Shown: positions 12,901-61,912 of the stretch, in pieces
How positions within the stretch are numbered: the first letter of the stretch is position 1
Layout: every line of letters begins with the position of its first letter
Source: Eucommia ulmoides
Lineage: Eukaryota > Streptophyta > Magnoliopsida > Garryales > Eucommiaceae
Direction of reading: 5' to 3'
NCBI GenBank assembly: GCA_016647705.1
Contig: CM028335.1
Coordinates: 25,398,905 to 25,462,904, forward strand
Length of the DNA: 64,000 bases
The notes under the pieces: model-generated
Told to the model about the DNA's origin: nothing
Database searches by the model: none
What the model saw: only the letters and a program-made list of their open reading frames with translations
Program-made: the position numbers and the translations under genes

Positions 12901-13019
12901 GAAAATACTGTAGCTACAGTAAGGCGTTTTCAAACTGAAATGATTTTTGATCTAACGGCTACGAATATCTAGAGACATCGGACGACTGTGAATGTAAATG
13001 AGCTGATTTATTATATAGA
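9948..13019 (-). mobile_element. Non-autonomous Helitron
   Basis: Read on the minus strand it begins TCTATATAATAAATC (at 13019) and ends with a perfect 8-bp hairpin, CCCGTGCC-TTTA-GGCACGGG, followed by TTATACG and CTAG (at 9948). It lies between a host A and a host T, the Helitron target rule. The neighbouring solo LTR continues cleanly across the site. No Rep/helicase was found. Possible captured gene pieces are the GC-rich stretches at about 11405-11520 and 12420-12830, but no protein was recognised. The interior also holds many 'ggaacagaaacag' simple repeats. Confidence 0.85.
10091..10606. repeat. Direct duplication inside the Helitron
   Basis: About 200 bases at 10091-10290 recur at 10397-10606, offset by about 306 bases. 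Both copies contain 'gatgatcccactccgatcaa'. A few substitutions separate the copies. Confidence 0.8.
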
Positions 13020-27115: not shown

Positions 27116-27359
27116 TAGTAGGGGTGGTCATAGGCTCGGAAGATACCTAACCTGCCCATACCATTAGCTATTTTTTAAGGTTTGAGTTTGATGTTTATGC
27201 CAATGAGCAAGGCTACCGCCCCAATGAGAGAACGTCATGTGTCAGGGCATGTGCCCCAATCGGCATCAACAAATACCTTGATTTGGATCATAGATTTGGC
27301 AAGAAAGAAAAGGCCTTGTCCTGGAGCTTTCTTCAAATATTGAAGGATGCAAAGAGTTG

Positions 27360-29500
27360 TGTTGATCCTAAGATTTTGATGAACAATTAAGTATTGATGT
27401 TTTGGTGGAACTAATGTTTTAATTGAGTATTTCAGTGATTTAAAGTTTCAATGATGAAGTTGAAGATATTGAAGATAAAATTAAATGAATCCTAAATGAT
27501 AAACTTGAAGATACTGAAGATCAAATTAAATGGATGTTAAATGATGAAGTTGAAGATTTAAGAGTTTGAAGAAATTAGGAAAAACAACCCAGGTAAATTT
27601 CAACTCTTAATATCCCATTTAGGAACACATACGGCACAAAATGTTTTTATTATTTATGTGTATTTTGATAAGATGAATTTATTTGCTCATATGTGTATTT
27701 GAAAAGAAATATTTATAAATGGTTAAAATGGAATTTGAAAAAGTTAGTGGAGCTAATTGAGAAAAGAAATTAGTTAAAGGGGCAAAAAAATATAAAAGAG
27801 AAAGAGTTTAAAATGTGATCAGAGAATAGATGTAGAAGGTAGCAGTCGACTGAGGAGTCGACCGTCTAATGGTGGTTGAACTCTCTGAATTGACGAGTCG
27901 ACTGACAAGTCGACCGGTGAGATTAAATGAAACTCTCTGAATCAAAAAGTCGACCGAGCGGTCGACCGATGAACTGCATTAGCTACATCCTGAATCTCCG
28001 AGTCGATTGGGCAGTCGACTGGTGGCTCTGTTTCAAGATCATGTGGATTCTGAAATCATATCTAAAAGTAGCCCTTTTTTGTTAGGATTTGAGAGAGATT
28101 TAAGGGATTTGGTGATATTTAAGATATGGTTCATATATTAATTAAATCCTATTGATTTGGTACATTAAATATTAATGTTTATCAATTTGGTATTTGAAAT
28201 AGTTTATATTCTTATTAATTGAGATTGAGAAATATTTTGGGGATTTAATTGAGAGATTTGAAAGTTGTTTTTAATTGAAATTGAACCTAAACGAATTCCT
28301 TATGATATAAGAGGTCTATAAGAGTATTTTATTGTCATGAAACTTGTAAACTAACCGTTAGGAGGCTGATTACATGTGCCTTTATATGGACCTGCGAATT
28401 TCATTAATCATTAAGCAAAAAAAGAGAAAAATCATATCATATTATATTGAGAGCTTTTATAAGAGTTATCCATCTGAAATATTGTGAGCTTTTTTGAGAG
28501 ACGATCTTGAAGATCAACTGCTATTAATTTGTACTGCTACTGGATCTTAAGTTATATTGTTTTATCTATTCTTTCTGTGGATTCCGGGTGAGATCTTTCC
28601 ATTTATATTCTTTCACTGCATTATTTGATTATTATTTGGAAATTGATCTTAGAAATTATTTCTGATTTTTGAAGAAAATATTTTTATAAATAATTTCTTA
28701 AATCTGATTACGTACTCCAATTTGTTACCCATATCTTGTTAAAATCATATTTCTGTATCTCACGTTTTTCTATCACTAATTGGGATATTAATTGAGTTAT
28801 TATTTATCTGGGGTGGTAGAAGCTCATGAGTGAGATTTACTTCTTATCAATTTGTGTATTGGTGAGTTGTGACGGATTAAATATCATTGAGGATATTTAA
28901 TCAAAGGTAGCCAGGTTTCAGTCTCTTCTTGTAAAGAGATTGAGGTAGTGATTCTTCCTAGATAAAAATTGTGTTGTAAGTGAATTGTAAAGGTTTCATC
29001 ATTACCTATGAAAAGGATACTTGGAGTGTTATGTGAGATTTTGATTCTTGAGCAGTAGTGATAAAAAGAATTAGGTTAATCTTTAGCTTGTAAAAAAATA
29101 GGTTATTCTTGAGCCTGGAAAAAGTAGAGGTTATTCCTTAACCTTAGAAAATGAAATTGTAAAGGTTGATTCTGAGCTTGTAAAAGAATTGGTGTACGGG
29201 TTTGGTTCTTACCTTTAAAGGGATCTTGATAATTAGTGGGTGCGAATCTCCGTGGGGCTCTATGGACTAGATTAGCTAAGAGTAGTTTGGTGAACCAGGA
29301 TATATCTTGGTGTGCTGCATTATTACTTTGTTATTTTTGTTGTTTGGGTATACACCTAGTTAATTGATTTGTTCCGCTGTGATATAAAGATAATAATTAA
29401 TTTAGGTATAAAATTAATTATTTGATTTATTAAATTTTATTCTGATTATTTTTTAATTACCCAATTCACCTCCCCTCTTGGGTATTATACTGGGCCAACA
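27360..29500 (+). repeat. 5' LTR of SIRE gag-only element
   Basis: It is 2141 bp, starts TGTTGATCC and ends GGGCCAACA. It includes the GTCGAC array (27845-28019) and a TATA-like 'ctttatatgg' near 28379. It matches LTRs ending at 492 and at 33804 and the minus-strand LTRs at 51516-53658 and 56809-58953. Confidence 0.9.
27845..28019 (+). repeat. Array of paired GTCGAC words, 12-bp spacing
   Basis: GTCGAC starts at 27845/27857, 27897/27909 and 27949/27961; a fourth pair is GTCGAT/GTCGAC at 28002/28014. Within every pair the starts are exactly 12 bp apart, and pairs recur every 52-53 bp. The LTRs at 53032-53216 and about 58277-58520 carry the same 12-bp pairs. It lies upstream of the probable TATA element, in the U3 part of the LTR. 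Confidence 0.9.
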
Positions 29501-32078
29501 ATTGGTATCGGAGCTAGTTTAGCTCGTTAGGCTTAACATCCTAGCTAAACCGGTCACGTGCGCACACTATGGATGATGTATTCTGTGTATCGTCTTTTGA
29601 TAGTGGTAATTGCGTATATGATAATGTGGTTCATGATTCTTGTGATTTTAGTGGTAGCGATGGAGATGATGATAATGAAAATATCCATATTGTTATGAAA
29701 AAATTACTTTATTTCACACTACGTTTTGCTAAAGAGAGCTTGAGTTGAAAAAGAAAAATCGCTTCTTTTGAAAATAGTGGAAAATTTGTTCAAAAATCTA
29801 AAATACATTTGAATGATTATTGTAGTTTAAAAGAGTTTTCGGAAGTTGTTTTTGAAATTAATAATTTGCTCTCTAAAGTGGATTATCTTAAAAATGAAAA
29901 TAAAGTTTTAAAAAATAAATTTGATATGATTTCCAAGCAAAAGTTAGATTTTGTTTTTAAAATCGATTTATTCAAGAAAATTTTTGAAAAATCAAAATCC
30001 GACCTTAAGTCTATTTCGAGAGATTCTGAAAATGATTTTTCTAAACAAAGTGGATATACTTCATCGTCTCATCTTTCATCATAGACCAGTGATGGTTATG
30101 TTTCTATTGTTAGAAATTATTTACGTTTTACATCTCGTGCTTTTTATGATAAATCAGATTTGAGATGTTATTATTGTAATAGAGTTGGACATTTTAAAGT
30201 ATCATGTCCGTTTCGGAACCCTAAGTTTATGTCTAATAAGGACGGATCCAAAATGAAATGAATACTGAAGAAAATTGTTGAAATGTCTTGTGCAGAATTA
30301 CAAAATGTCGGAAGTGGACCTAAAGGAATAGTTAAAGAGTTTATATCAAATCCAAATCCACAAGCGACATGTGCAAAGCGAAAAGATGCACTAAAGACAC
30401 GAGGTGAAGTTGTAAAGAAACCACAAGAGATATGTGCTAAGAGAAAAGCTGTACTAAAGCCAATATGGGATAGCACAAGAAAACTACAAGTGATCCGTGC
30501 AAAAGGAATCTTAAATAAATCAAATGGAAAAGATCAAAGGAAGAAAGGATATAAACAATCCAAGAAGAATTGCGCACCTAAATCAATTATGAGCTCAAAT
30601 GAGGTAAAAAGTAAAAGTCACCTCAAAAAATAGAAAAGGTATTCCTAACCCTCCGCATTTTAAATTTATTAAATTTGTTAAAGAGGGAGAGTCTCGACTT
30701 ACCAAATAGGTAAGTTGTGATGGTTTCTAAGACCTATTTTCAATAATGTGTTTACTTGTTGTCTTAGAAACATTATTTGGTGATTATGACAATCACATTT
30801 AGTTAAGGGGTATTAACATGTCTTTATATGCTTATATCAAATAGTAATCATGTGTTAATTTTAAAGCATGTTATGTGATTTAGAAAATTAATTGAGTTAA
30901 GTTTTTTTATTAATCTTGATTTATTAAAATGCATGATATTTTATACTGAGATAAATTGAATGACTTAATTTGATCATGATAATATTTGTATGGTTAATAT
31001 GAAAGCATGAGATTTTTTTTTTGACACCATATATGTGATTATTTGAATATTCATGGTGTATCAATCTGTGCTTAATGTTTTAAATTGATACTTTGTGCAT
31101 ATGGATATATTTAGAGATATTAAATATCTAGCTTTAATGTATGATAATATGTTCTTATGTTGCATGTCTACTGATTTATAAATGATTATTATTATTCTAA
31201 AAGAGAAATGAGATTTTATGAGAGAAATATGCATTTATCCGTATTCATGCATGCACTAGATTTAGGATTGATAAAATGCTTGAGTAATGCTTCCTATCTT
31301 AGTGTGCTAAAGAACATATGTTTTGTTTTTATAGAGGGAAGACATTGTTTTGGTATCATGAGTAAGGCATATGGAGTTAATTGATAATTATATGATTACA
31401 TGCTATATTGTTGAAAGATTTTAATTGCCTCTCCTAAGCATGAATTGACTTGTTTATAATTATATATGGGAAGAAGTGTTTATAAGAGGAGTAATATTAT
31501 GTCATACTTATATTGAAACACGTGTTTTGTTGAAAAGTTAAAAGAGTAAATATGTTTGTGAAAAATTAATATCATACTATATTGCTTAAATATAATGATT
31601 ATTCACCTATGCGTGAATATTATTCATTTACAATTTGATAGAGGAAGATTGCATGCTCAGAAAGATATTTTTGGTGTGGATCGTGTTGGATTGAGTAGAC
31701 TTGATATTTATCTATAAAAATGATCCACATAGTATTGATGTATTATGCTTAAAAGATTAATTTAGTTAAATAAGTTAAAAGTTGATCCAATGAGCTTTTT
31801 ATGATGCTTGCCCAAAGTGAGTTACATGTGTGTTCCCCTCCTACGTAAATTTATTTTTGAAGATGACAAATGGGGAGAATTTGTTGATATTTTATTAAGG
31901 AAGAGTTTTATTAATGAATTTATTATGCTTTATTGATTATGCTTTATAATATCTTTATACTTATGTTTAAATGAGTTAAAGAACCCGTCCTCAAATTCAG
32001 AGAGAGTGTGGTTATATTTTATTTTGAAGAAAATATCAAAGTTAATTGTCATCATAAAAAAAAAAAAAAAAAAGAGAT

Positions 32079-33804
32079 TGTTGATCCTAAGATTTTGATG
32101 AACAATTAAGTATTGATATTTTGGTGGAACTAATATTTTAATTAAGTGTTTCAGTGATTTAAAGTTCCAGTGATAAAGTTGAAGATATTGAAGATCAAAT
32201 TAAATGGATCCTAAATAATGAACTTGAAGATACTGAAGATCAAATTAAATGGATGCTAAATGATGAAGTTGAAGATTCAAGAGTTTGAAGAAATTAGAAA
32301 AAACAACCTAGGTAAATTTCAACTCTTAATATCCCATTTAGGAACACACACGATACAAAATGTTTTTATTATTTATGTGTGTTTTGATAAAATGAATTTA
32401 TTTGTTCCTATGTGTATTTGAAAAAAAAAATTATAAATGGTTAAAATGGAATTTGAGAAAGTTAGTGGAGCTAATTGAGAAAAGAAATTAGTTAAAGGGG
32501 CAAAAATGTAAAAGAGAAAGAGTTTAAAATGTGATCAGAGAATAGATGCAGAAGGTAGCAGTCGACTGAGGAGTCGACTGTCCAATGATGGCTGAACTCT
32601 CTGAATCGACGAGTCGACTAACAAGTCGACCGGTGAGATTAAATGAAACTCTCTGAATCAAGAAGTTGACCGAGTGGTTGACTGATGAACTGCATTGGCT
32701 ACATCCTGAATCTCTGAGTCGACTGGTGGATTTGTTTTAGGATTATGTGGATTCCGAAATCATATCTAAAAGTAGCCATTTTTTGTTAGGATTTGAGAGA
32801 GATTTAAGGGATTTGGTGATATTTAAGATATGGTTCATATATTACTTAAATCCTATTGATTTGGTACATTAAATATTAATGTTTATCAATTTGGTATTTG
32901 AAATAGTTTCTATTCTTATTAATTGAGGTTGAGAAATACTTTGGGGATTGAATTGAGATATTTGAAAGTTATTTTTAAGTGAAATTGAACATAAATAATT
33001 TCTTAAATCTGATTACGTGCTCTAATTTGCTTCCCATATCTTGTTAAAATCAGATTTCTGTATCTCATGTTTTTCTATCACTAGTTGGAATATTAATTGA
33101 GCTATTATTTATCCAGGGTAGTAGAAGCTTCTAAGTGGATTTACTTCTTATCAATTTGTGTATTGGTGAGTTGTGACGGATTAAATATCATTGGGGATAT
33201 TTAATCAAGGGTAACCAAGTTACAGTCTCTTCCTGTAAAGAGATTGAGGTATTGATTCTTCCTAGATAAGAATTGTGTTGTGAGTGAATTGTAAAGGTTC
33301 CATCCTTACTTATGAAAAAAATACTTTGAGTATTGTGTGAGGTTTTGATTCTTGAGCCGTAATGATAAAAAGAATTAAGTTAATCTTTAGCCTGTGAAAA
33401 TATAGGTTATTCTTGAGCTTGGAAAAAATAGAGATTATTCCTTAGCCTTAGAAAAGAAAATTGTAAAGGTTGATTCTGAGCCTATAAAATAATCAGTGTA
33501 CAGGTTTGGTTCCTACCTTTAAAGGGATCTTGAGAATTAGTGGGTACGAATCTCCGTAAGGCTCGGAGGACTAGACTAGTCAAGAGTAGCTTGGTGAACC
33601 AGGATATATCTTGATGTGCTGCATTATTACTTTGTTATTTTTGTTGTTTGGGCATACACATAATTAATTGATTTATTCCGCTGTGATATAAAGATAATAA
33701 TTAATTTAGGTATAAAATTAATTATTTGATTTATTGAATTTTATTCTGATTATTTTTTAATTACTCAATTCACCCCTCTTCTTCGGTATTCTACTAGGCC
33801 AACA
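32079..33804 (+). repeat. 3' LTR of SIRE gag-only element
   Basis: It is about 1726 bp, starts TGTTGATCC and ends GGCCAACA. It aligns with 27360-29500 but is shorter and retains a degraded version of the GTCGAC array near 32560-32720. Confidence 0.9.
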
Positions 33805-35111
33805 AGTTGCTTGAAGATGTGGAGTACATTGAGCAACCAAGTATTGATTAAGACGATTAACCAAGTAACTAAGATCGGGTCTGGTGATGGTAAGATAGAG
33901 TAACTTGCCAATCTATCATTTGTAGCTAGTAGGATGAGTAAATAAATTACCATCAGAAACCTGAGGTTTGCTTCCATAGGAACAAAAATAGGTTTACACC
34001 CCAAATAACTTGCATCTAAATGCAACTCCAAGGCATATTTGCGTTGGCAAACGGAGAATCCTACCGCAAAATGTACTACCTCGAGACCCAAAAAAATACT
34101 TGAAAGGGCCTAAATTTTTCATCTTGAAGCACTTACCAAGGGTTGACGTAAGAGTCTCCATGGTTGTTGAATCATTAATAACAATAATAAGATCGTCAAC
34201 ATAGACCCAAAGTGCCAAAAACGAATGACCAACAGTTTTGTTAAACAAGGAATGATCACAAGCAGATTGAGTAAAGCCTTCGGAGAGCAAAACAATGGAG
34301 AACTTATGGAACCATTGTCTGGAAGTTTGTCGTAATTCGTATATAGATTTGTGAAGTTTACAAACGGTATTTGGAGGTGAAGTCTCCCCCTGTCGATGAG
34401 AGTAACCCAGGGGTAATATGATATAGATTTCTTCAACGAGATCATCATGGAGGAATGCATTGGTGACGTCCAGTTGGGTAAGAGACCACCTCGAAACAGC
34501 AGCTAAGGAGAGTAAAACTTTGACAGTAACCAGTTTGTGTCAAGAATGTTAATGCCCTTTTGTTGTGTAAACCCCTTGGCCACGAGACGTGTCTTATAAC
34601 ATTCAACAGTATCATCCGCAAGAAATTTGGTCTTGTTGACCCATTTACAACCCACCAATTGTTTTCCAGGAGGTAATGAAACAATGGACCATGTTCCATT
34701 GCTTTCTAAAGCACGCATTCCATGTTCATGACATCAAGCCAAACCTATTGCTTAATGGCATCAGAAAAAAAAATTAGGTTTAATGTGTGAAGAAATGGAT
34801 AATATAAAATGGCGATAGGGGTGAGAAAGCCTATGATAACTAAGAGAAGAAGACAATGGATATGGAGTGGAAGTAGAGAAAGTGACCATGGAAGCAGTAG
34901 AATGATGAGTGGTAAGACAGCAGTGATAATCTAATAAGTGGGATGGTCACTTGATAACACGATAAGAACGAGAAGGAATATTGGAAAGTGGAGATGAGGA
35001 TGACGAATTAGGAGAAGCAATAGGAATCACGGCAGGAGAAGTAGGAAGGTCAAGGCCAGGAAGAAGAGAAATAGGAAGAACACGATCGTGGAAGAAGTCA
35101 TGAAGAACAGA

Positions 35112-36041
35112 TTATGACTGTGAATTAGAAAATGGAAAAATGGTTTCATAAAAGTGCACATTTCGAGAAATGTAGACCGTATTGCTCTCTAAGTCAAAGA
35201 GTTTGTATCCTTTATAACTGAAAAGATAGCCAATGAATACAAAAATTCGGGCACGAGGAAAAAACTTGGTACGATGACTAGGAAGAGTGGAACCAGAACA
35301 TAGGTAATCAAAGCTACGTGAATGGGCATAAGTAGGCTTTGTACCATGTAACAGTTCAAACTGAGTTTTGTTTGCCAATAGGGGAGATGGTGTGCGATTA
35401 ATAAAATAAACGACGGTGAGAATAGAATCACTCCAATAGCAAAGAGGGACACAAGATTGAAAAAGGAGTGCTCGAGCTACATTAAGGATATGTTGGTGTT
35501 TTTGCTCAACAACGGAATTTTGTTCTGGTGTGTCAACACAAGAATGATAAGGAAGAATGCCTTTAGAGTGAAAATTTTTTGTGAAGGCCAATTCAGGGGC
35601 ATTATCGAAGAGAACTGATTTTATGGATTTGGTATATTGAGTTTGGATGAGAGTGTAAAAGTCAGGGAAAATAGTAAGAACATCAGATCTGGCCCGTAAA
35701 AGATAAACCCAAGTAGCTCGAGTGTAATCATCAACAATGGTGAGAAATGATTTGTGTCCAGCGATGGTGGCAACATGAAAGGGTCCCCAAATGTCAATAT
35801 GTATTAAATCGAAAAGTTGGGCAGACATGTGATTATGAGAAATAAATGGGAGACGTTTTTGCTTAGCCATATGATAGATGCGACAATGGGAAGAAAAATG
35901 AGACAAAGAATTGGAAAGTTGTAATTCATGATGAAGCATTTGAACTTTTACATGAGATGGATGTCCAAGGAGGAAATGCCAGATATCACATTTAGACATT
36001 ACAGAACAAGAAAAAACTGAATTACAAAGTGGAACTCCCAA
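35112..36041 (-). pseudogene. Integrase region of the old copia
   Basis: This is one open frame of 309 codons with a GAG-pre-integrase-like start ('WHFLLGHPSHVKVQ') and a core reading 'IDIWGPF', then 'FLTIVDDYTRATWVYLL', typical of copia integrases. It is part of the fossil at 27120-42850 and is cut off from its protease by the nested 36074-41019 element. Confidence 0.8.
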
Positions 36042-36073
36042 TTCGAAAAAATAAAGATTGTTGCGGCGTCTAC

Positions 36074-37612
36074 TGATAGGTGTAAATTACCTACATATTT
36101 TCAATCCGAATTTATTAGTTTCCTAGTACGTTTATAGTTATTTTTATGTGTTTTTAATTAGTTTTTCTCTTTTTTTATTAAATCAGGTGTGTGGGAAAAA
36201 AAGATAGGAAACTGAAGCGAAAACGATAAGATCAAACCAAAGCGGTTCGAAGTTACGGTGGATAAACAAGCTCGGAGGCTAAAAGATTAAACAGGCCCAC
36301 CGCCTAGGCGTCCAGACCACCGCCTAGGCAGTGAAGAATCTGAGAAAAGAGAAAAATATTACTAACGGACGACTGCCTAGGCGAAGATTCCTTCGCCTAG
36401 GCAAAAATCCAGCAGAAGAAGAAGATGGGCTACTGACAGCCGCTCGTCTACGCGAAGTTTTCTTCGCCTAGGAGAAAATCCAACAGAATGTTCTCCCAGT
36501 CCACCGCCTACTTCACTGCCTAGGTGATCGACCGAACTTCCTTAAATTCGCTTAGGCAAAGTTTTCTTCGCCTAGGCGAATTTCCCCTGCGCAGTCTTGA
36601 GATATTTTTAGGATATTTTGGCTATAAATACTCCCTCTCCTCCCCCTTCTCCGGTCTCTCTCTTGCTCTCTTGCATTTTTTAGCCCTTTAGGCTATATCT
36701 AAGGGTATATTTAGGGATTTTGGAGGGAGAGCTCTCAACCCGAGGTGGAGGATCAACGAGGAAGCGATTAATCGACGTTTCTAACGGTAAATCTTCGGAT
36801 ATCGGCTAAGTCGCTTGTTTTCCCTCTCTGTTTTATTTATTTTGGTAATTGTTGAGCATGTTTAGATCATTCTACATTGTATAAACGGTTAGGGCCATGA
36901 GTTAAACATGGATTGTAATAGGGATTAACGTATTATTTATGAAAATGTAGTTTTGGTTGAATTTGTGTTTCGTTCTTGGTTGTTCCTCGTATGTTGATTG
37001 TGTTGCCGTATTTTCTATGATTATATGCTAGTTTAGATATATTGAGAATATGAGGTTTGACACTTGGGAGAGGTAACCCCGGATTCGGATTAGGGTTAAC
37101 ACAACACGACAATTTAACGACCCAGGAGGACGTTAGAAAGTGTGCAATCGATGACGTTGGGGAGAGACTCACGTGACCTAGAGTCGTTAAGATGTTGAGG
37201 GGGACTTCGGCGTTGACATGAAGTCATGTATTCCCCTGTCTTACACTCGGAAGAGGTGGCGAGGGAGTTTACGAACCGAGATTGTCGAATACGCTGAACG
37301 CCGTTAGTGTTAACTAAAACGAAATTAGACGCATTTAAGTAAAAAGTTAATCCCTAGGCAATCTACTCCCCTAAACAATCTCAAATTAGTATTTATAGTA
37401 TAGTTAACTTAATTAGTATCTTAGTTTAGTATTAGTAATTAATTAAAATCCATTTTTAGCGCCTAGATAAAATTAGGTTATGACAATCGCGATACTCGAT
37501 AGTAATCTCAACCAATCCCTGTGGATACGATACCCGACCAAAAGGTCCACTATACTAAAACTTGATCTGTACACTTGCGGTGAAAGTAGCAGCGCATTAT
37601 TTGCGGCCACCA
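36074..37612 (+). repeat. Left LTR (plus orientation) of inverted-LTR element
   Basis: It is 1539 bp, starts TGATAGGTG and ends GGCCACCA. A TATA box, 'ggctataaatac', lies near 36620-36631, after the CCTAGG array. Similarity to the right LTR continues about 8 bases past the LTR end ('agtttttg'), up to the start of the primer site. Confidence 0.85.
36303..36576 (+). repeat. Array of paired CCTAGG words, 20-bp spacing
   Basis: CCTAGG or a near copy starts at 36303/36323, 36376/36396, 36447/36467 and 36551/36571, always 20 bp apart. One further pair, 36507/36519, is 12 bp apart. Most words are flanked as CGCCTAGGCG. The array lies just upstream of the TATA box. The inverted right LTR carries the counterpart at about 40560-40800. 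Confidence 0.85.
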
Positions 37613-38242
37613 AGTTTTTGAAATACCCCCAAACTCAGAATTTGGCTAGTCCTCGAGCCAAACACCCACACAATACGAAAAATTATACAAACTAATTACG
37701 AAATTAAAAACTATAAACGAAAAACATGAAAAACAAAAATGTGTAAGTTTTCATTATCATCTACTGGCCGAAAGATTTTTCCCTCATCGGCCTCCAATCC
37801 TATCAAGTTCAAGCATAAATCACACCATATGATGTTCTAGAATTTTAATGTTCAAAAATAGTTAGCTTCATTCTAGATCCTATTTAAGTGTGTGTGTGAT
37901 TAAACTCAAATATACTACTATCCATTGATTAGATGTGATTATCCCTAAATAAAGATCATGACTAGAACCTTTAAGGTATAGGAAATCCATACGCCTGACC
38001 TGGGATCTATTCTCCACTAATGTAGGCTCGGAGGTTCATGAAGATCAGTAGGGCTTGGTTTGATTTTTGGAAAATGGCCAAGGGTATTTTGGAATAGAAA
38101 ATAGGTTAACGTCATCAACTTAACGTTACCCGAGGCACATCGCTTGGCACACTCACACTCGAAACCCCATAGTTATAATTGAAACAACCCCGAACATACG
38201 TTTAAGAACGTCGTACTCACTTTTCATGTCAAAAAGAACTGA

Positions 38243-38315
<73 letters not shown>

Positions 38316-39517
38316 TAACACACCCCCAAACTCATTCGAATTTCTACAATTTTAGGAGTGTGCAAAAATGATTAAGTAACACACCCCAAAACGTATTCGA
38401 ATTCTTACAACTTTAGGAATGTGCAAAAATATATGAACGACAAAGGACAAGTGAGTATTCGAATACCGAACCAATTAGAATTTCGGCCTAAACCCAACCG
38501 CTCACATCAAGTAGCGAAATGCTAACTTGATTCACTCAAATTGTGTCTTTAGTTTAGCGATAAAGGTTTGGAAAAAGATCAATCAGCTAGGGTATTTGTT
38601 AAGTATTCAGAATTGAAATGGCTTTTAGGCTTTGACAGGGTAACGAAGGGTAATGATTTATTAGGGTAATCTTAAAAGGCTCAAGCGATCAAATAAATGC
38701 CTAAATCATATCTTCTAAACAACCTCACCTAGGATTTCGCCTCGAATTTCTCCCAAATCAAGTTCTAGAATCCCTATTGTTATGAAATTGATTGACGGAT
38801 AATCGGTTTTAAATCACTAAGATAGTGCTATATTGAGTTTACGTGCTCGTGTATTTAGGGTCTACAATAAATTTTACTAAGACGATACATTAAGCACACA
38901 GAACACACATGATTACACTCGACCTCAGAACAATCAGGGGACAGAGTCATCATCGGATAAAGGCCTAGATGACGTCAAAACGTAGCACAAAATAGCATCT
39001 AAACTAAACAAACTAATCCTAAACAAGCATGCAAACGTATAAAAACAGTAAAACATGCTAAAAAAAACATATACACATACTAAAACATACTACACATCAC
39101 CACAAACTCAACACCAGTAATGTCCAAAACAAGCCGTCATCGATCCCAATGACAGTATATAGCATGATATTGAAAACGAGGGTTTAGAACACATACCTAG
39201 GAGGCGAGAGGATCTCGCCTCCGACTCAAATTGACGGAGATGTATCTAACTTATTTGTGACCCTGGGTTACCTCCTAAGAAGTACTTGGTTTAATGTCCT
39301 AGGCTCGACACATGCCCTCAAGACTGGCGAGATTTTCAATGATCGAACCGCAGGAGTACCTGTCGATCTAACATCTTCAAGCATCCTGTAGGAAAACAAA
39401 AACAAAACTACAAACGAAAATTATGTACAAAAGAAATGCCTAGATTAAAATCGAGTTATTTACTCCCAATATCGATAGCAATCAACAAGACAATCCCCGG
39501 CAACGGTGCCAAAAACT
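37613..39517 (-). other. Non-coding internal region of the inverted-LTR element
   Basis: No gag or pol was found. A (ATT)n run of about 74 bases lies at 38242-38315. Two direct repeats near 38320-38370 and 38382-38432 contain 'cgaatt' and 'ttaggaatgtgcaaaaat' or a close variant. The primer site is 39494-39511 and the purine tract 37621-37636. Confidence 0.7.
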
Positions 39518-41019
39518 TGGTGGCCGCAAATAATGTGCTGCCACTTTCACCGCAAGCGTATGGATCAAGTTTTAGTATAGTGGACCTTTTGGTCAGGTAT
39601 CGTATCCACAGAGATTGGTTGAGATTACTATCGAGTATCACGATTGTCATAACCTAATTTTATCTAGGCACTAAAAATGGATTTTAATTAATTACTAATA
39701 CTAAACTAAAATACTAATTAAGTTAACTATACTATAAATACTAATTTGAGATTGTTTAGGGGAGTAGATTGCCTAAGGATTAACTTTATTTACTTAAATG
39801 AGTCTAATTTTGTTTTAGTTAACATTAACAGCGTTCGGCATATTCGACAATCTCGGTTTGTAAACTCCCTCGCCACCTCTTCCGAGTGTAAGACGGGGGA
39901 ATACGTGACTTCGTGTCAACACCGAAGTCCCCCTCAACGTCTTAACGACTCTAGGTCACGTGAGTCTCGCCCCAACGTTATCGATTGCACACTTTCTAAC
40001 GCCCTCCTGGGTCGTTAGATTGTCGTGTTGTGTTAACCCTAGTCCGAATCCGGGGTTACCTCTCCCAAGTGTCAAACCCCGTATTCTCAATATATCTAAA
40101 CTAGCATATAATCATAGAAAATACGGCAACACAATCAACATACGAGGAACAACCAAGAACGAAACACAAATTCAACCAAAACTACATTTTCATAAATAAT
40201 ACGTTAATCCCTATTATAATCCATGTTTAACTCATGGCCCTAACCGTTTATACAATGTAGAATGAGCGGAACATGCTCAACAATTACCAAAATGAAGAAA
40301 ACAAATAGGGAAAACAAGCGACTTAGCCGATATCCAAAGATTTGCCGCTAGAAACGTCGATTGATTGCTTCCTTGTTGATCCTCCACATCGAGTTGAGAG
40401 CTCTCCCTCCAAAATCCCTAAATATACCCTTAGATATGGCCTAAGGGGCTAAAAAATGCAAGAGAGAAAGAAAGAGACCAAAGAAGGGGGAGGAGAGGAG
40501 GTATTTATGGCCAAAATATCCTAAAAATATCTAAAAATATCTCAAGACTGCGCAGGGGAAATCCTCCTAGGCGAAGAAAACTTTGCCTAGGCGAATTTAA
40601 GGCAGTTCAGCTAATCGCCTAGGCGGTGGACTGGGAGAACATTCTGTTGGATTTTCGCTTAGGCGAGCGGTTGTCAGTAGCCCATCTTTGTCTTCTGCTA
40701 GATTTCCACCTAGGCGAAAGAATCTCCACCTAGGCGGTCGTCCGTCAGTAACATTTTTCTCTTTTCTCAGGCGGTGGTCTGGACGCCTAGGCGGTGGGCA
40801 TGTTTAATCTTTTAACCTCCGAGCTTGTTTATCCACCGTAACTTCGAACCGCTTTGGTTCGATCTCATCGTTTTCGCTCCAGTTTCCTATCTTTTTGCCC
40901 CACACACCTGATTTAATACAAAAAGAGAAAAACTAATTAAAACACATAAAAATAACTATAAACGTACTCGAAAACTAACAAATTCGGATTGGAAATATGT
41001 AGGTAATTTACACCTATCA
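39518..41019 (-). repeat. Right LTR (minus orientation) of inverted-LTR element
   Basis: This is 1502 bp on the minus strand, starting TGATAGGTG at 41019 and ending CCACCA at 39518. It is the functionally placed 5' LTR because a primer site follows it. Confidence 0.85.
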
Positions 41020-42636
41020 TCTACCTTCCCAGTTGTCAAGACTCGAGTAAGGTCTTGAATTACACATGCAGAAGAAGAAAACACCGCAAGAATGACTAAG
41101 AGTAAGAGCACTTACACTAAGATTAAAAGAAAACATGGGAACAAATAGAATAAGGAATTGGATAAGGGCACAGTACCAATGCGAGTGATAGCAACATTCT
41201 GACCATTAGAAAGTGTAACAGTGGTGTTGTGAATCATTTTGGAATGAGAAAACAGAGAGATAGAGCAACAAACGTGATGTGTTGCACCAGTGTCGATAAC
41301 CCAAGTATGTGGAGGAACCGAATGATGGGAAAGGAAAATTTTAGTAAAGGGGTTACCATTAACATGTGAAATCGAAGGTTCCATGGCCGATTAGGACTCA
41401 GATGTGGAGATTCCATGAGTATGGAGCTGCGAGCTGAGGTATGAAATCAGTTGTTGAACCTGATTTGGTGAAAATTGCTCAGAGAGGGTAGATAACGTCG
41501 TAGCAGTAGCAGTAGTGGGTAGATATTTGGTCAAACAATAGTGTTCTGCTGTGGATTGAAGAGAATTCTGATAGGTTGTGATTTGGGCTTTAGACTTGGG
41601 CTTGTACCTAGGGGGATACCCATGCAATTTGTAGTAGTGGTCCACTGAGTGACCACTCAACCCATAATGAGAACATTGTGGCTTCATTCACCGACATCGA
41701 AATGGAGAAGAAGAGATCACCACTATAGGAGCAATTAGAGTTGGGAGGAGAGAAGGTTGAGAAGTCGTGACACCAAAAGCGAGAGAATCATGCGGTGCAG
41801 AAGAACCAGCACTAAGAGATCGTTGTCGCTCTTCCTGAACAATGAGATTGAACACCTTCGTAACATAAGGCAGAGGATTGAGCTTTAGGATTTGACCGTG
41901 CATACCAGCATAAGATTCGTTGAGACCCATTAGGAATTGCATAACATATTTGTGTTGTTGATGATCGGTCCACAATTTCATACCACCACTTTGCCAAAGA
42001 GGAACAGGTTGGAAATTCTTAAGCTTATACCAAAGGGTTTTCAGCCAAGTGATATAGGTATTGATGTCGAGAGATCTGTGAGAAAGACCATGAAGTTGTT
42101 GTTTGATCTGGAAGATGTATGGAGCATTGCTCTGACAAAATTGTTTATGGAGATCTGACTAGACAGCGTGAGCACTATCGAGGTAGAGAAGACTATCGGT
42201 GATTTCTTCAGAGACAACATTAAGAAGCCAAGAGGTGACCATACTATTGCAACAAGACCAGATTCTAGTGGAGGGATTATCCGAAGAAGGTTGCCGAAGA
42301 GTGTCGTCCACAAAACCGAGCTTGTTCTTGGCATTGAGGGCCATCAACATCGCACGATTCCAGGTATTGTAATTAAGGCCAGTAAGTACATGAGAAACTA
42401 GGGCTAAACCAGGATGATCCCCATTGTGTAGAAAAAATGGATTGTGAATATTATCCATTGAAAAGGAATCCGGTTGAGATTGAGTAGTGGTTGAAGAAGA
42501 AAGAGGGGTAAGGGATTGGAAACGATTGTTAGTAGTGGTTGACTGTTGATTACCACTACCACGAGCCATGGTGGTTCAGCTATAAAGCTGCTATGTGCAG
42601 CAGAGTAATGAGAAAAGAAAATTCTTCTAATAACAT

Positions 42637-42850: not shown

Positions 42851-43519
42851 CCAAAGGGAAGATAACATCACCATAAGCCGTTGGATGTCCCCAGTCACGT
42901 ATACTACATATACAAAACAAAAACTACTTTTAAAAGCACTTTTAAAATATTCAATAATTGTTATCGAGAACAAAACCAAACAAGCCCTTAAAACGAATGT
43001 GATCTCCTTTTTCGCACTATTAATTAAACTCGTTACCTGCGCAGCATTGGTCAATAAGAGAAGTAACAACTAAAAATATCGATGCCTGCTTCAACTCGGA
43101 CACCAATTTAATTTATCAGTATGCTGCAAGAACTTGTTCATATATATAGAATTGTTAATATATATGATGTTCACATATACAACACTACGATTATATATAT
43201 TTCTATGTGCACAAACAGATTCAAAGTGAGATAACGTTTCCCTTCCTCGTAGGTAGTGTTTGGAAGTACGGAATTTGAAATAACAGCCATTCATTTCTAG
43301 TTCCAATTCTAAGGTCCCAATTCCAAGCAACCAAAGGCTATTAAAAATGAGCAAGTAATCTAAGACATTCAAGAAAGTGAATGATGAATGTTCATTCAAA
43401 CTACCAAATTTGAAGTTGGAAGCCACTTCTTGTTGGCTAGTTTGATCATTAGCCAAAAAATAAATAATAAATAAATAAAAAAAAAAAAAAAAAAACCTGA
43501 TTACACCATACATTTGGAA
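42851..43519. other. Spacer with degenerate duplicate of the 19.5-kb region
   Basis: About 43020-43110 resembles 19500-19570 and about 43340-43400 resembles 19672-19732 (both with 'gaatgttcattcaa' or a near match), same orientation. A MITE-like 'gtagtgtttgg' foldback sits at about 43255-43330. A poly-A run precedes 43498. No intact gene. Confidence 0.4.
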
Positions 43520-44888
43520 ACCAAAACTCTAAGATGGCGCTTGGTGGCATGGAATTGAAGCCTTGGAATTGGAATTAAAAATAAACGCAAGTAAATTTTC
43601 AATTTTTCACACGGGTTCATCTCTAATTCCAATTCCAAGACTTCAATTCCATGAAACAAAAATAAATATGTGGACAACAAAAATTGAAGGCCATTGCAGA
43701 TGCCTTGGAAATAAGGAAGAAGACAAAAATTTAGGTAAAATTTGTTGCAGATGCCATGCATTTCGTTTTTAATCATTCTATTTTTTAAGTTTTGAGAAAT
43801 GTTTATCATTAAAAGAGACTAGCAAAGGTTACAGAAGATTGTGACAGAGAGCATATCACAACTATATCTAGCCCTTCTCTAGGAAATAAAAAACAACCAA
43901 CCAAAGAATACAGAATGTAATCGTGAGCAAGCTACAACTAGGGAGGGAATGGCTCGGCTGGACAAGAACCAAAACCAAAACTCTAAGATGGCGCTTGGTG
44001 GCACGGAATTGAAGCCTTGGAATTGGAATTAAAAATAAACGCAAGTAAATTTTCAATTTTTCACACGGGTTCATCTCTAATTCCAATTCCAAGACTTCAA
44101 TTCCATGAAACAAAAATAAATATGTGGACAACAAAAATTGAAGGCCATTGCAGATGCCTTGGAAATAAGGAAGAAGACAAAAATTTAGGTAAAATTTGTT
44201 GCAGATGCCATGCATTTCGTTTTTAATCATTCTATTTTTTAAGTTTTGAGAAATGTTTATCATTAAAAGAGACTAGCAAAGGTTACAGAAGATTGTGACA
44301 GAGAGCATATCACAACTATATCTAGCCCTTCTCTAGGAAATAAAAAACAACCAACCAAAGAATACAGAATGTAATCGTGAGCAAGCTACAACTAGGGAGG
44401 GAATGGCTCGGCTGGACAAGAACCAAAACCAAAACTCTAAGATGGCGCTTGGTGGCACGGAATTGAAGCCTTGGAATTGGAATTAAAAATAAACGCAAGT
44501 AAATTTTCAATTTTTCACACGGGTTCATCTCTAATTCCAATTCCAAGACTTCAATTCCATGAAACAAAAATAAATATGTGGACAACAAAAATTAAAGGCC
44601 ATTGCAGATGCCTTGGAAATAAGGAAGAAGACAAAAATTTAGGTAAAATTTGTTGCAGATGCCATGCATTTCGTTTTTAATCATTCTATTTTTTAAGTTT
44701 TGAGAAATGTTTATCATTAAAAGAGACTAGCAAAGGTTACAGAAGATTGTGACAGAAAGCATATCACAACTATATCTAGCCCTTCTCTAGGAAATAAAAA
44801 ACAACCAACCAAAGAATACAGAATGTAATCGTGAGCAAGCTACAACTAGGGAGGGAATGGCTCGGCTGGACAAGAACCAAAACCAAAA
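43520..44888. repeat. Threefold tandem repeat, 454-bp unit
   Basis: Three nearly identical units start at 43527, 43981 and 44435 at 'ctctaagatggcg', a constant 454-bp period, with only a few substitutions among copies. Each unit holds an inverted repeat: 'ggaattgaagccttggaatt' pairs with 'aattccaagacttcaattcc' about 50 bp away (43551-43650, 44005-44104, 44459-44558). The open frames here (for example 43563-43772) simply repeat per unit and look non-coding. Expansion is recent. Confidence 0.9.
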
Positions 44889-45240
44889 CCGTTCAGGAAA
44901 CTGCAAACATGAGACCACACAACCACCTCCGATTTTTGTTATGTCATTCTTTTTTCAACCTGAACCGCACGTTTTTTGTATAAAATTGAAGCCAACCCGT
45001 GAGCCCGTTTATAGGTCATTTAGTTTTAATATTTCACTATTTAACCCCTAGTTCTTTTGGGTAGTTCATGAAAAAAGAACTATTTCATCTCCATCCATTA
45101 TGTCTGTATCATATTTCAATGCATGATAACCTAATTCATTCAAATTGCTTGTTAGTCATTAAAAGGATTAAGGCAGCTTTTGAAACAAGGTAGAAGCATA
45201 CACCCACAAAATCTAAAACAACAAACTACATGTGAAATAT
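44889..45240. other. Spacer, nothing recognised
   Basis: This is the flank of the tandem array. No coding or repeat signal was recognised. Confidence 0.4.
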
Positions 45241-48639: not shown

Positions 48640-50333
48640 AAAGAGAAATCGTGAGAGAGTAATCTAGGTCAGTTGTCCCCTTTAAGTATTGAAAAATTCG
48701 CTTAATAGCAGTCAAGTGCGATTCTTCAAGACAAGAATAAAATCTAGCACAAAGACAAACATTATACATAATGTCAAGTCTACTAGCAGTTAAATATAAC
48801 AGACTACCAATCATACCTCGATACATTTTTTCATTAACACTTTTGCCCGTATCATCTTTGTCTATCTTTGTAGCCGTTGCCATGGGAGTTTTTTACTCTT
48901 TAGCACCTTCCAAGCCATATTTTTTTAAAAACTCCTTGGTGTACTTAGTTTGATTTATAAATATTTCTTCTTTGGTTTACTTAATTTGCAATCCAAGAAA
49001 TAAATTCAACTCTCCCATCATACTCATTTCAAATTCAACTTGTATTATCTTAGCATATTCTTGGCAAAGATCCTCATTAGTAGATCCAAAAATAATATCA
49101 TCAACATACACTTATACTAATAGGATATCAGAATCAGTTTGCTTCACAAACAGTATTATATCACAAATTCCCCTTCGAAAATCGTTTTCGATCAAATATC
49201 GGCTAAGTTTCTCATACCAAGCTCTAAGAGCTTGTTTGAGCCCATACAAAACCTTGCGAAGTTTAAATACGTGATCGAAAAATTTATCACTTTCAAATCT
49301 CGGGGGTTGTTCCACATAAACTTCTTCTGATGATGATGACAATTAACTTTGATATTTTCTTCAAAACAAAAATATAACCACACTTCTCCTGAATCCGAGG
49401 ATAGGCTTTATAACTCATTTAAGCATCATAATGAATATTTCAAAAAATATAATCAGTAAAGCACGAAAAATAAAAATAAAAAAATACTCCCCCTTAATAA
49501 AACATCATCTAATTTCTCCCCATTTGTCATCTTCAAAAACAAAATTTAGGGAGGGGGGAACACAAATGAACATTACTCTAGACAATCATATAATATACTT
49601 GAAAGAGTAAGCCTAAATGAATTAAATCCAAATATATATAATTCTTTTAAAAACACATTGAATCAACTCATAACTTTAACTTTAAGAATCAAAACTCATT
49701 TTAACAAATCAACTTTTAGGCATAAAACATCAACACTATGTGGATCATCATTATAGATAAATATCAAGTTTATTCAATTTATCAAAATTCACACCAAAAA
49801 CATCATTCTTAACATTCAATCTATCACTATATAAGTGTAAACAAACTAATTCATTTTAAGAAAAAAAATATAATCTTTGAAGCACTAAGACATGAAATAT
49901 CTCTCAATAAATAACATGCATATTAAAAATGTTATCTCGTAACATGCTCAATCCCTTACACAGTAATAATCATTTAAAAATTCAGAGGATATGAGACATA
50001 TAAGAATGACCTATTATCATGTATATAGCCAGATACTTAATTCATATAAATATATCCAAGTAAGCATATAATCATGGTCTTGAACAATTCAACTCAAATA
50101 AATCATTCTTTATCTTTTAATTCACCTCAAACAACATGCATTTTAATAAATCAAAATTAATAAAAACTTAGTTCAATTAATCTTCTAAATCACATAACAT
50201 GCTTTAACATTAACACATGATTACTACTCAATATAAGCACATTATAAAAATATGTGATTACATTTTAACTAAATGTGATTTTCATACCTATTTGGCAAGT
50301 TCGGCACCTCCCTCTTTAACAAATTAAATGAAT

Positions 50334-51446
50334 TTAATGCGGAGGATTAGGAGTACCTTTTTTCTCTTTCGGGACAACTTTACTTTTTATCTCATTTGAG
50401 CTCATAATTGATTTGGGTGCGCAATTCTTCTTAGCTTGTTCGTATCCTCTCTTCCTTTGATTTTTTCCATTTGATTTATTGATGATTCCCTTTGCACGTA
50501 TCGCTTGTGGCTTCTTGGTGATATCCCATCTTGGATTTTGTACAACTTTTCTCTTTGCACATTTTTCTTGTGGCTTCTTTGTAACTTCACCTCTTGTCTT
50601 TGGTGCATCTTTTTGCTTTGCACATGTCGCTTGTGAATCTTTGATGACTTCCTGTTTTAGCTTTGATATAAACTCTTTAATTATTTCTTCAGGTCCACTT
50701 CCGACATTTTGTAATTCTGCACAAGACATTTCAATAATTTTATTCAGTATCCATTTCATTTTGGATTCGTTTTTGTTAGATATAATTTTAGGGTTCCAAA
50801 ACGGACATAATACTTTAAAATGCCCAATCCTATTACAATAAAAACATCTCAAATCCAACTTATCATAGAAAGTACGAGATGTAAAATAAGAATAATTTCT
50901 AACAATAGCCACATAATTATCACTGGATTGTGATGAAGGATGAGACGATGAAACATATCCACTTGGCCTAGAAAAATCATTTTCAAAATATCTCGAAATA
51001 GACTTAAGGTCGAATTTTGATTCTTCAAAATTTTTCTTAAGTAAATCAATTTTTGAATCAAGATCTGACCTTTACTTATAAATCATGTCAAGAGTATTTT
51101 TTAAAACTTGTTTTCATTTTCAAGAGAATCCACTTTAGAGAGTAAATTATTAATTTAAAAAATAACGTCCGAAAACTCTTTTGAATCATAATAATCATCT
51201 AAATGCACTTTAGATTTTTGAACATTTTTTCTACTATTTTCAAAAGAATCAATTTTTTTTTTTTTTTAAACTCAAACTCTCTTTAGCAAAAAGTAGTGTG
51301 AAAGAAAGTAATTTTTCCATAACAATATGGATATTTTCATTACCATCATCTCCATCACTACCACACGAATCACAAGAATCATAAACCACATTGTCATATA
51401 AGGATCTATCATCATCAAGAGAAGATACACAAAAAATATTATTCAT
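50334..51446 (-). pseudogene. Gag-like remnant of nested element
   Basis: An acidic N-terminal segment (51446-51249), a coiled-coil-rich middle, one CCHC knuckle, 'CFYCNRIGHFKVLC' (about 50807-50848), and a Lys-rich tail with a unit of about 20 residues ('KKPQ..CAKRK') repeated two to three times. The corresponding part of the plus-strand copy is 29569-30640. It is retroelement gag by the knuckle and its position; broken. Confidence 0.65.
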
Positions 51447-51515
51447 GGTGTGTGCACGTGACCGGTTTAGCTAGGATGTTAAGCCTAACGAGCTAAAACT
51501 AACTCTGATGTCAAT

Positions 51516-53658
51516 TGCTGGCCTAGTAGAATACCCAAGAGGGGGGTGAATTGGATAATTAAAAAATATCAGAGAAAAAATAATACTTCAAAAATCAAAC
51601 AATTAATTTTATCCTAAAATTAATTATTATCTTTATAGCAGCGGATAAGTGTAATAAGCTCTAGGTGCACACCCAAAGAACACAAGATAAAATAAAAAAA
51701 ATAAACAATAAAGTACATACCAATATATCTTGGTTCACCAACCTACTCTTGGCTAATCTAGTCCTCCGAGCTCCACAGAGATTTGCACCCACTAAACTCA
51801 AGATCTTTTTAAAGGTAGGAACCAAACCCTCACAAAAATTATTTTCGCAAGCTCAGAATCAACCTTTACAAAAAAAAATTCTAGACTCAGGAATAACCTC
51901 TACTTTTTGCAGACTCAAGAATAACCTAATTCTATTATAGGGAGAATCACAACCTATTTTTTTTTATACCTTAGGCTCAAGAACCAAAACCTCACAAAAA
52001 TGCTCTAATTACTATTTTTCCAGGTAAGGATGGAACTTTTACAAATCACTCACAATCAATTTTATCTAGGAAGACTTACTACCTCAATCTCTTTATAGGA
52101 AGAGACTGAAAATCGGCTACCATTTGATTAAATACCCCCAATAGTATTTCATCCGTCATACTACTCACCAATACAAATTGATAAGCAGATTATCTCACTC
52201 GGAGCTTCTACCATCTCAGATAAATTAAAATTCGATTAATATCTCAAATCTAGTGATAGAAAAATGTGAGATTGAAAATCTGATTTTAAACAAAAGATGG
52301 GTAGCAAATAATTGAGCACGTAATCAAATTCAAGAAATTGTTTATAAAATATTTTCTTCAATAAAAATCAAAAATAATTTCTAAAGATCAATTTCTAAAA
52401 AATTAAATAAGCAATGCACAATAGAAAATAATTGGAAAGATCTCACCCGGAATCTATAGAAAAAATAAATAGAGCGATGATACTTCAGGTCCGGTAGCAA
52501 CAAAGATTACTAGCAATGATTCTCAAGATCGTCTCTTAGAATAACTCTCACAAAATCTCAGAAAGATAACTCTTAGAATAACACAATATGATCTTATCTC
52601 TTTAAGCTCACTTCTCTTGATTCTATGTTTCACTGCTCTTAGATATAAGAAAAATGCAGGTCCATATATATAGGAAATAATCAGCTCTTTAACGGCTAGT
52701 TCTCATGTGTCATGGAAATTAAATGTTCTCTTAGACCCCATATATCATTATGACCTCATATTGGTTCAATTCACTAAATTATAGCTTTCAACACTTTCAA
52801 TTAAGTCCCCCAAATATTTCTCAATCTTAATTAGAATAGAATAGAAACAATTTCATGTACCAAATTGAGAAATATTAAAACTTAATGAACCAACTTAATA
52901 GGATTTAAATAATAGATTAAACATATCTTAAATATCATTAAATCCCCTTAAATCTTTCTCAAATCTCAACAAAAAACAGCTACTTTTAGATATAATTTCG
53001 AAATCCACAGTTTCCTGAAACAACACCTTTAGTCGACCGGTCAGTCGATTTCCCAATTCAGGATGTAGCCAAGCCAACGCTGTTGCATTCATCGGTCGAC
53101 CTACCTGTCGACTTAGAGATATAAAGAGTTCATCTTCTCTCGGCCGATTGACCTACCTGTCGACTCAGAGATATAGAGAGTTCATGCTGCTTGGTCTGGT
53201 CGACTCATCAGTCGACTTATGTTTGCTGGATCTCTTTTCTGAACTCATTTTTAACTTTTTCTCTTTTTTACGTTTTTTGCCCCTTTAACCATTTTCTCTT
53301 CTAAATTAGCTCCAATAACTTCTTAAATTTCATTTTAGACAATTACAAATATTTCTTTTAAAACACATAGGAGCAAATAATTTCATCTTATCAAAACACA
53401 CATAAACAATAATTTGTTTTGTGCCGTGTATGTGTTCCTAATTGAGATATTAAGAGTTGAAATTTACCTAAGTTGTTTTCCCTAATTTCTTCAAACTCTT
53501 AATTCTTCATCATCTTTGACATCATCATTTAGCGTCCATTTATAAATTTGTCATTCCATCTTTATCACAGAAACTTAATTAACTGAAGCATTTGAACAAA
53601 CCATTAGTTCCATCAAAATATTAACACTTAATTGTTCATCAAAATCTTAGGATCAACA
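51516..53658 (-). repeat. 5' LTR of nested gag-only element
   Basis: It is 2143 bp. The minus strand starts TGTTGATCC and ends GGCCAGCA. The GTCGAC array (plus coordinates) starts at 53032/53044, 53095/53107, 53147/53159 (degenerate first word) and 53199/53211, all at 12-bp spacing. Confidence 0.85.
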
Positions 53659-56600: not shown

Positions 56601-56808
56601 AATAAACAGACCATCCTCGATTGTTAGCCACATATCGTAATTTGTAGCCTGAAGAAGGCTATCATTTTGTCTTTCCAGAACGAATAACTTTCACATGCAA
56701 ACAAAGATGGTCGGTGCATAGACTGTCTCTCAGCTAGTGTGCCTATTATGTGCGCCATGTGATCTTTGTTAGCTAAGTTTGTCGAGCTAAACCAACTCTG
56801 ATACTAAT

Positions 56809-58953: not shown

Positions 58954-59314
58954 GTTTTTTTATCTTAAACTTTTTTTTTTCAGTTAAAAAAAATGATAAA
59001 CTCTTAATAATATAGTTCACAACTATATCATGGGTATGAGATTGAATTCATGACATTACTATAGAAATAGTTCTTAGATAATGTTGGATGATGTGGCCTC
59101 TCAGGTTGTCTGTGTTGACGTGTTTGGTGATGTGTCAAAGGTGAGATGACATGATAATGAAGTGGACTACCATGTGGTACTTGACGTGGACCTATTCAGG
59201 CATGTAGATGTGCTCAGAAGAGAGGTTGCAAATTGTGGTAGTAACTAGTACGGGAGGCAAACTGTGTGCCATTGGAGTTAAGGTTTGTGGCATTAACTTT
59301 TGTTGAGATACTAG
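58954..59314. other. Spacer, nothing recognised
   Basis: No coding or repeat signal apart from a possible purine tract just before 59315. Confidence 0.4.
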
Positions 59315-61684: not shown

Positions 61685-61912
61685 AACAACACCGCCAAAT
61701 CGAATATCAACACTGCTGAATTGAATATCAACACCGCCGAAGAACATCACGAAAACGAACACAGCCGAATAACACCACGAAAACGAACAACACCGCCAAA
61801 TCGAACAAAAAGCCAAAAAAAAAAAAAAAAAACATATTTTAGCTTTATGTATTTGATTCATTACTCTCATATTCAATCATTCATTTGTTTAACGTTTCTT
61901 TCTCTCTCTAAA

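Follow-up and report, generated by a model that had tools for sequence, protein, structure and literature searches.

A 4.9-kb long terminal repeat (LTR) retrotransposon at positions 36074-41019 of a 64,000-nucleotide stretch of the Eucommia ulmoides genome (C11:25398905-25462904; this whole stretch is hereafter the window) carries two LTRs that face each other around a 1.9-kb interior, so that both outer ends of the element are U3 ends (U3 and U5 denoting the unique 3′ and unique 5′ regions of an LTR). The joint that marks this arrangement, at which the polypurine tract (PPT) is followed by an inverted LTR, recurs in the genome, and we read it with its PPT context and inverted LTR end at 13 loci including the window. 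The element is likely to have inserted as a single two-U3 molecule that arose through PPT-extended strong-stop DNA.

Direct reading and arm alignment confirmed the initial annotation of the window, which had described opposite-facing LTRs with the U3 end TGATAGG at both outer ends and TCTAC at both flanks. The arms at 36074-37612 (+) and 41019-39518 (−) are the same LTR in opposite orientations, with 93.9% identity over 1,490 aligned bases. Their match extends 8 nt beyond the LTR, through AGTTTT and then TG, the first two bases of the primer-binding site TGGCACCGTTGCCGGGGA; similarity of about this length, up to the start of the primer site, had been noted before, as had the presence of the primer site beside one LTR only, which proved to be the right one (39494-39511, − strand). 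The annotation had also placed the purine tract against the back of the inverted LTR. The inverted LTR does come next, but the PPT (GGGGGTATT, − strand, 37622-37630) meets a remnant of spacer and primer site rather than the LTR itself, with one extra base between them. Read in the sense of the PPT, the interior ends in GTTTGGGGGTATT, followed by T, CA, AAAACT and then the LTR backwards in place of U3. The features of the element are as follows.

36069-36073, left target-site duplication TCTAC (sequence read directly)
36074-37612, + strand, inverted LTR with U3 outward at 36074 and its U5 end GGCCACCA inward (inverted-repeat alignment with the right LTR)
37613-37618, + strand, U5-side spacer AGTTTT, moved with the inverted LTR (the right LTR is separated from the primer site by the identical six bases)
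37619-37621, + strand, TG, the first two primer-site bases and the complement of the tRNA 3′ CA, plus the extra base A
37622-37634, − strand, PPT GTTTGGGGGTATT, ending at the last base before U3 (ordinary copies run from GGGGGTATT into TGATAGG)
37622-39493, − strand, internal region of 1.9 kb with no recognised coding domain (frame scan)
38245-38317, (ATT)n microsatellite in the internal region (sequence read)
39494-39511, − strand, primer-binding site TGGCACCGTTGCCGGGGA, presumably of tRNA-Asp type (sequence read and genome-wide joint pattern)
39512-39517, − strand, spacer AGTTTT between 5′ LTR and primer site (arm alignment)
39518-41019, − strand, 5′ LTR with U3 outward at 41019 (inverted-repeat alignment)
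41020-41024, right target-site duplication TCTAC (sequence read)

When 10 of the 20 listed interior frames were scanned against Pfam, no coding domain was recognised and no tyrosine recombinase domain was found; the sole match was to CASP_dom at E 0.22, under its curated cut-off. An assembly error is an unlikely source of the structure because 91 of the 1,490 aligned positions differ between the arms and other loci show the structure as well.

The limits of the LTR are supported by a solo LTR and by ordinary copies in which GGGGGTATT runs straight into TGATAGG. The solo LTR, from a related subfamily (window 8847-13230), starts with TGATAGG, ends with CGCCTCCA and has the duplication GGGCG on both sides; it is interrupted by roughly 3 kb of nested insertion (about 9941-13020) and documents one ordinary integration by U3 and U5 ends within the wider family. 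TG...CA ends are present in it and in both arms of the window element. Of the 28 relatives retrieved for the window joint region (L012-L040 minus L016), 27 carry the U3 end directly at the PPT border, of which 26 passed a script test and one with a changed base (L014) was counted by eye; L021 has other sequence there. In pattern and similarity searches over the 947-Mb genome, a gapped PPT-U3 pattern matched at 804 places and its reversed control at none, and among the matches listed all except eight were GGGGGTATTTGATAGG. A 26-base pattern for the joint of U5, spacer and primer site gave 11,602 matches with up to three mismatches, exactly 5,801 per strand, an equality for which we have no explanation. 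The window element retains the primer site at the 5′ LTR side and the PPT at the opposite interior end, with its LTRs inverted instead of direct. We regard it as the aberrant outcome of an LTR element, probably from the Tat/Athila side of Ty3/gypsy, that has ordinary relatives elsewhere in the genome.

Searching the genome for the palindromic arrangement and for normal copies, as the initial annotation had proposed, yielded 12 further loci and abundant ordinary copies. A 32-base joint pattern matched the window and one other place, a third locus (L016/L042) emerged when the window joint was used as a DNA query, and a 24-base pattern with up to three mismatches matched 10 places (control, 0), of which L053 and L055 were rejected as having no PPT context. 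Gapped patterns added L064, L065 and L068, and then L074. The pattern search that brought in L074 gave 17 matches (three with the reversed-pattern control). Ten of the 17 resemble palindromic joints: for seven a wider context was read (window, L042, L056, L058, L064, L068 and L074), and three were judged on matched letters alone (C4:44124978, C10:43959795 and C10:48272046); the other seven look unrelated, again as judged by their matched letters alone. An inverted repeat was detected within the locus at 8 of the 13 loci (window, L041, L042, L056, L057, L059, L060 and L062), in L057 and L060 as matches under 300 bases, and the inverted LTR was identified through similarity to other LTRs at L064, L065 and L068. 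At L058 and L074 it was judged from a short stretch only, with no inverted arm found within the 9.9 kb fetched for L058. The palindromic elements fall in several subfamilies.

Three loci stand apart. At L065 (C6:29123435), counted among the 13 and read at its joint, the inverted LTR meets the PPT with neither spacer nor tRNA-like bases. At L043 (C13:34749002), which was not counted, a full inverted LTR meets a PPT-like motif without a spacer and the flanks mismatch (TGTAG/ATTAG). This motif resembles the second such motif in the interior of the window element (minus-strand sense, about 38314-38334), and the locus may reflect either LTR nesting or joining at a PPT-like site within the interior. 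The mirror case, in which the 5′ LTR would be inverted, was searched for twice, at a stringency not matched to that of the main search, and no clear example emerged. The single match of the first search, L069 (C15:26869934), was rejected because ordinary U5-terminal bases follow the inverted U3 end; there the inverted U3 end abuts the last U5-end bases and the primer site, which looks like a nested insertion near an LTR end. The second returned 34 matches, all with two or three mismatches and mostly ordinary U5 ends by letters alone.

The joint itself is nearly constant. The PPT runs to about the last base before U3 (mostly GGGGGTATT) and is followed by the U5-side spacer (AAAACT), which is preceded by 1-7 nt matching a tRNA 3′ end (CA, CCA or GGCGCCA). 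Spacer and tRNA-matching bases lie between PPT and inverted LTR at 12 of the 13 loci (window, L041, L042, L056, L057, L058, L059, L060, L062, L064, L068 and L074), in keeping with the earlier suggestion that the 8 extra bases of the window arms point to the primer junction. In the sense of the PPT, the joints read TATT-T-CA (window, L062 and L059, the last with the PPT GGGGATATT), TATT-TT-CA (L042), TATT-C-CA (L041 and L056), TATT-A-CA (L057 and L060), TATT-GA-CA (L064), TATT-TGA-A (L068), TAT-GGCGC-CA (L074) and GTT-C-CA (L058, with the PPT GGGGGTGTT). After these 12 joints comes AAAACT or AAAATT and then inverted U5, whereas in L065 the LTR follows TATT directly. The search patterns favour some forms, so the proportions of joint types are biased.

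At 12 of the 13 joints the PPT extends as far as the base just before U3, and in L074 it falls one base short; in L042 and L068, 1-3 further bases follow it, possibly U3 or untemplated. As a rule, tRNAs end in CCA. The retained tRNA-like stretch in L074 is GGCGCCA, which in complement matches the primer site of L042 over the first seven bases of that site; the stretch is CCA in L041, L056 and L058, and a single A in L068; in the window, L042, L057, L059, L060, L062 and L064, CA follows another base or bases. The extra base of the window joint is variable among the other loci. Eleven joints keep CA in this way; the base before it is C in L041, L056, L058 and L074 and a different base in the other 7, a pattern that suggests the addition of a base and not the decay of a single sequence.

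For six of the elements both outer ends could be placed, and all six have U3-type ends on both sides, with the right end of L059 (GGATTGG) two bases off TGATAGG. The right outer end of L056 and both outer ends of L060 were sought and not found. In five of the six, 5-bp duplications match at the two ends and all differ from one another: TCTAC (window), ATAGT (L041), AATTG (L042), GTCAT (L057) and TTTAT (L059, under a reading of its terminal base given below). The window element lies within an older, degenerate copia element, the two halves of which are as follows.

33994-36073, − strand, downstream half with gag_pre-integrase, integrase and reverse transcriptase pieces (Pfam and empty-site reconstruction)
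41025-42575, − strand, upstream half with gag (Pfam Retrotran_gag_3 at 42159-42575)

In the downstream half, SH3_retrovirus and RVT_2 score above their curated cut-offs, and rve and gag_pre-integrs below theirs. Reconstructing the empty site from 240 bases per flank and one TCTAC reunited the copia halves, with a frame change that we attribute to decay of the host element.

The flipped-LTR event recurred, as several subfamilies are involved and the nearest relatives of two of the elements are without the joint. It is absent from all 39 other relatives scored for the L062 joint region (90-92% identity; matches begin at query bases 23-32, with the joint at 29) and from 38 of 39 relatives of the window element, the exception being L042. 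In a tree of 33 internal regions, the window element and L042 occupy separate positions, and each adjoins an ordinary copy at moderate support (86/97 and 99/57). The tree excluded the ordinary copies L021 and L030 (because of the extraction pattern) and the divergent palindromic copies L058 and L060; taken alone, it counts three changes, only two of them forced, and its bootstrap had not converged.

Towards the dating of the arms, also proposed in the initial annotation, divergence was measured in five elements (window, L042, L041, L062 and L059), with Kimura two-parameter values from 0.064 to 0.142; comparison with normal LTR pairs was limited to one, the neighbour pair L018/L071 (91.1% identity), as no pair was obtained from L012/L072 or L031/L073. 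If the arms began identical, these values would place the events at different ages. The arms need not begin identical, as L057 (C5:31391086) suggests. Its LTRs align over only 1,208 bases at 84.5% identity, with 563 gap columns and a transition/transversion count of 91/96, whereas the LTR pairs of the window, L041, L042, L059 and L062 have 22-94 gap columns and ratios of 2.6-4.7. In global alignment to 37 LTRs, the 5′ arm of L057 ranks its partner 30th and the inverted arm ranks its partner 7th. L057 thereby appears to join LTRs of two subfamilies; the 5′ arm makes this case strongly, the inverted arm, from a subfamily outside the sample, less so. In ordinary elements both LTRs derive from the same strands. 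L057 seems to have drawn on two templates and, with its single perfect duplication GTCAT, is a possible record of mixed templates in one particle.

The proposal in the initial annotation that a complementary DNA (cDNA) with two U3 ends was made by aberrant reverse transcription and then integrated is supported by the joint bases, by recurrence with different duplications and by L057; the recurrence itself, and the variation of the tRNA-matching stretch from 1 to 7 nt, go beyond it. That the LTR was flipped before integration is very probable. Given such an origin, we lean towards a polymerase route, and we infer both the order of its steps and a polymerase jump rather than ligation at the joint. 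In this scheme PPT RNA would prime plus-strand strong-stop DNA (U3-R-U5-spacer, R being the repeat region of the LTR) more than once in a particle, as in Ty3. A copy made after RNase H had trimmed the primer tRNA would end after 1-7 tRNA bases, too short for plus-strand transfer, while the same RNase H would leave the PPT 3′ end at the PPT/U3 border. Synthesis from the strong-stop 3′ end would then continue onto the PPT 3′ end, frequently with one base added. The extended strand would go on to copy what remains of the element, with the ordinary 5′ LTR coming from a second strong-stop strand, giving U3-R-U5-primer site-interior-PPT followed by spacer-U5-R-U3 in inverted order, and integrase would insert the two U3 ends with the usual 5-bp duplication. 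For Ty3, repeated PPT priming, cleavage of the tRNA at or near its junction, and a second plus-strand strong-stop DNA that stops at the U5 end have been described, with dead-end strands accumulating (PMC5371799). By analogy, strands of this type would end where our joints begin, and a recut PPT would end where they resume.

Several points weigh against this scheme. Only integrated copies were observed, and no cDNA. The match of the retained joint bases to a tRNA relies on what we take to be the tRNA 3′ end, and these bases could equally be copies of primer-site DNA. A jump onto PPT RNA would need either a long-surviving RNA or a second transfer onto plus-strand DNA. The TTTAT duplication of L059 presupposes a changed base at the terminus of its right LTR, and the L062 flanks TGCCC and GCCAC mismatch over 5 bp (GCCC versus GCCA over 4 bp). 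L065 may be a different class of event, and five of the seven palindromic copies in the tree cluster together (100/100 support). Finally, the variable extra base and the PPT trimming in L074, together with 1-2 bases of PPT trimming at two further places identified on pattern alone, would also fit end joining.

End joining by the host before integration would ligate the U5 end of a double-stranded LTR fragment to a cDNA that stops at the PPT, the two-U3 product then being integrated. It would account for the variable fillers (one base to several) and slight trimming at the joints, and for the unlike LTRs of L057. The PPT side is nevertheless constant to about one base at 13 loci, which points to an RNase H cut or a plus-strand nick, and a double-stranded cDNA end at the PPT/U3 border is not known to us. 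We consider this route unlikely, though it is the main rival.

Far less probable is a self-propagating palindromic lineage in which the flipped form is copied as such. Several copies exist, and the cluster of five might be taken as such a lineage; that clustering is expected because the ordinary copies were drawn by similarity to the window, leaving the ordinary relatives of the five unsampled. The joint-free relatives of L062, the separate positions of the window element and L042 beside ordinary copies, and the differences between joints all speak against it, and RNA of the flipped form would presumably offer minus-strand transfer no directly oriented 3′ R.

Inversion of the 3′ LTR of an ordinary element after insertion is highly improbable. 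L065, with its PPT joined to the inverted LTR and no spacer, looks as expected of an inversion, yet an in-place flip is excluded elsewhere because an integrated 3′ LTR adjoins the genomic flank and not the spacer or primer-site bases that are kept at 12 of the 13 joints; for the window element, the spacer already contradicts it. The matching duplications at two U3 ends in five elements, the resemblance of the L057 LTRs to different subfamilies and the lack of a clear inverted 5′ LTR in the searches described above, whose stringency was unmatched, also count against inversion. Autointegration, known for retroviruses, in which integrase would join a processed U5 end into the element's own PPT before later insertion of the product, is equally improbable and was rejected with inversion on the retained unprocessed bases: it could explain the direct PPT-LTR joint of L065, but joining after the terminal CA would lose the spacer and tRNA-like bases, and the target would not be the PPT border every time.

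The flipped-LTR elements have partial likenesses among known systems. With the Ogre/Tat/Athila (OTA) group of Ty3/gypsy, the family shares TG...CA LTR ends, the 5-bp duplication, a PPT next to U3 in ordinary copies and, in the window element, a primer site that may be of tRNA-Asp type, TGGCACCGTTGCCGGGGA fitting the tRNA-Asp 3′ end. Unlike OTA elements, the window element has one inverted LTR and no coding domains by which its reverse transcriptase could be placed. For non-chromoviruses, tRNA-Asp is among the primers used (PMC6317226). In the PPT recycling of Ty3 and Ty1, strong-stop strands are dead ends or are transferred (PMC5371799), whereas here one appears fixed, inverted and integrated. 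DIRS-1 has LTRs inverted to each other by design and circular intermediates whose integration is ascribed to a tyrosine recombinase (PMC5633606); the window element differs in its target duplications, primer site, PPT and ordinary direct-LTR relatives. A single inverted LTR in a locust intron has also been described (PMC8786324). The primer site, PPT and ordinary relatives likewise separate the window element from terminal inverted repeat DNA transposons. Non-autonomous elements resembling large retrotransposon derivatives (LARDs) share long LTRs and an interior without coding domains, and ordinary LARDs differ in having direct LTRs. Retroviral autointegration and inverted circles, reportedly described by Shoemaker in 1980, are alike in forming inverted segments in unintegrated cDNA. 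Autointegration uses processed ends, whereas the joint here keeps unprocessed bases. We found no description of the flipped-LTR arrangement in titles and abstract openings of an open-access library that leaves out most subscription papers, so older retroviral work may hold related cases.

We tentatively suggest, with slightly less than even confidence, that two-U3, flipped-LTR cDNAs form a regular class of reverse-transcription by-product in the Eucommia lineage. Their joints would then be fossils of strong-stop ends, showing the tRNA trimmed to 1-7 nt while the PPT was recut, with recycling as in Ty3; integrase would accept two U3 ends in vivo; and arms of about 1.5 kb could be a source of hairpin RNA against a family of thousands. 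LTR annotation presumes two direct LTRs, and a recurring two-U3 class would be missed or misread by annotation tools and in LTR dating. The joints would offer sequence-level snapshots of strand ends in particles that otherwise leave no trace, allowing PPT recycling and the extent of primer-tRNA trimming in plant elements to be addressed from genome sequence, and they indicate that integrase can use two U3 ends in vivo.

Elsewhere in the window, a tandem array of three copies of a 454-base unit with 99% matches (43518-44889) lies near the gag half of the host copia element. Members of a repeated family occur in both orientations at 27351-33805, 50129-53660, 56783-58980 and 6-492, with about 72-92% identity; one copy holds a 245-amino-acid frame with a zinc-knuckle-like stretch (50334-51071) and no Pfam match at E 0.001. 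The start of a dynamin-family gene (Dynamin_N) lies at 61607-62428.

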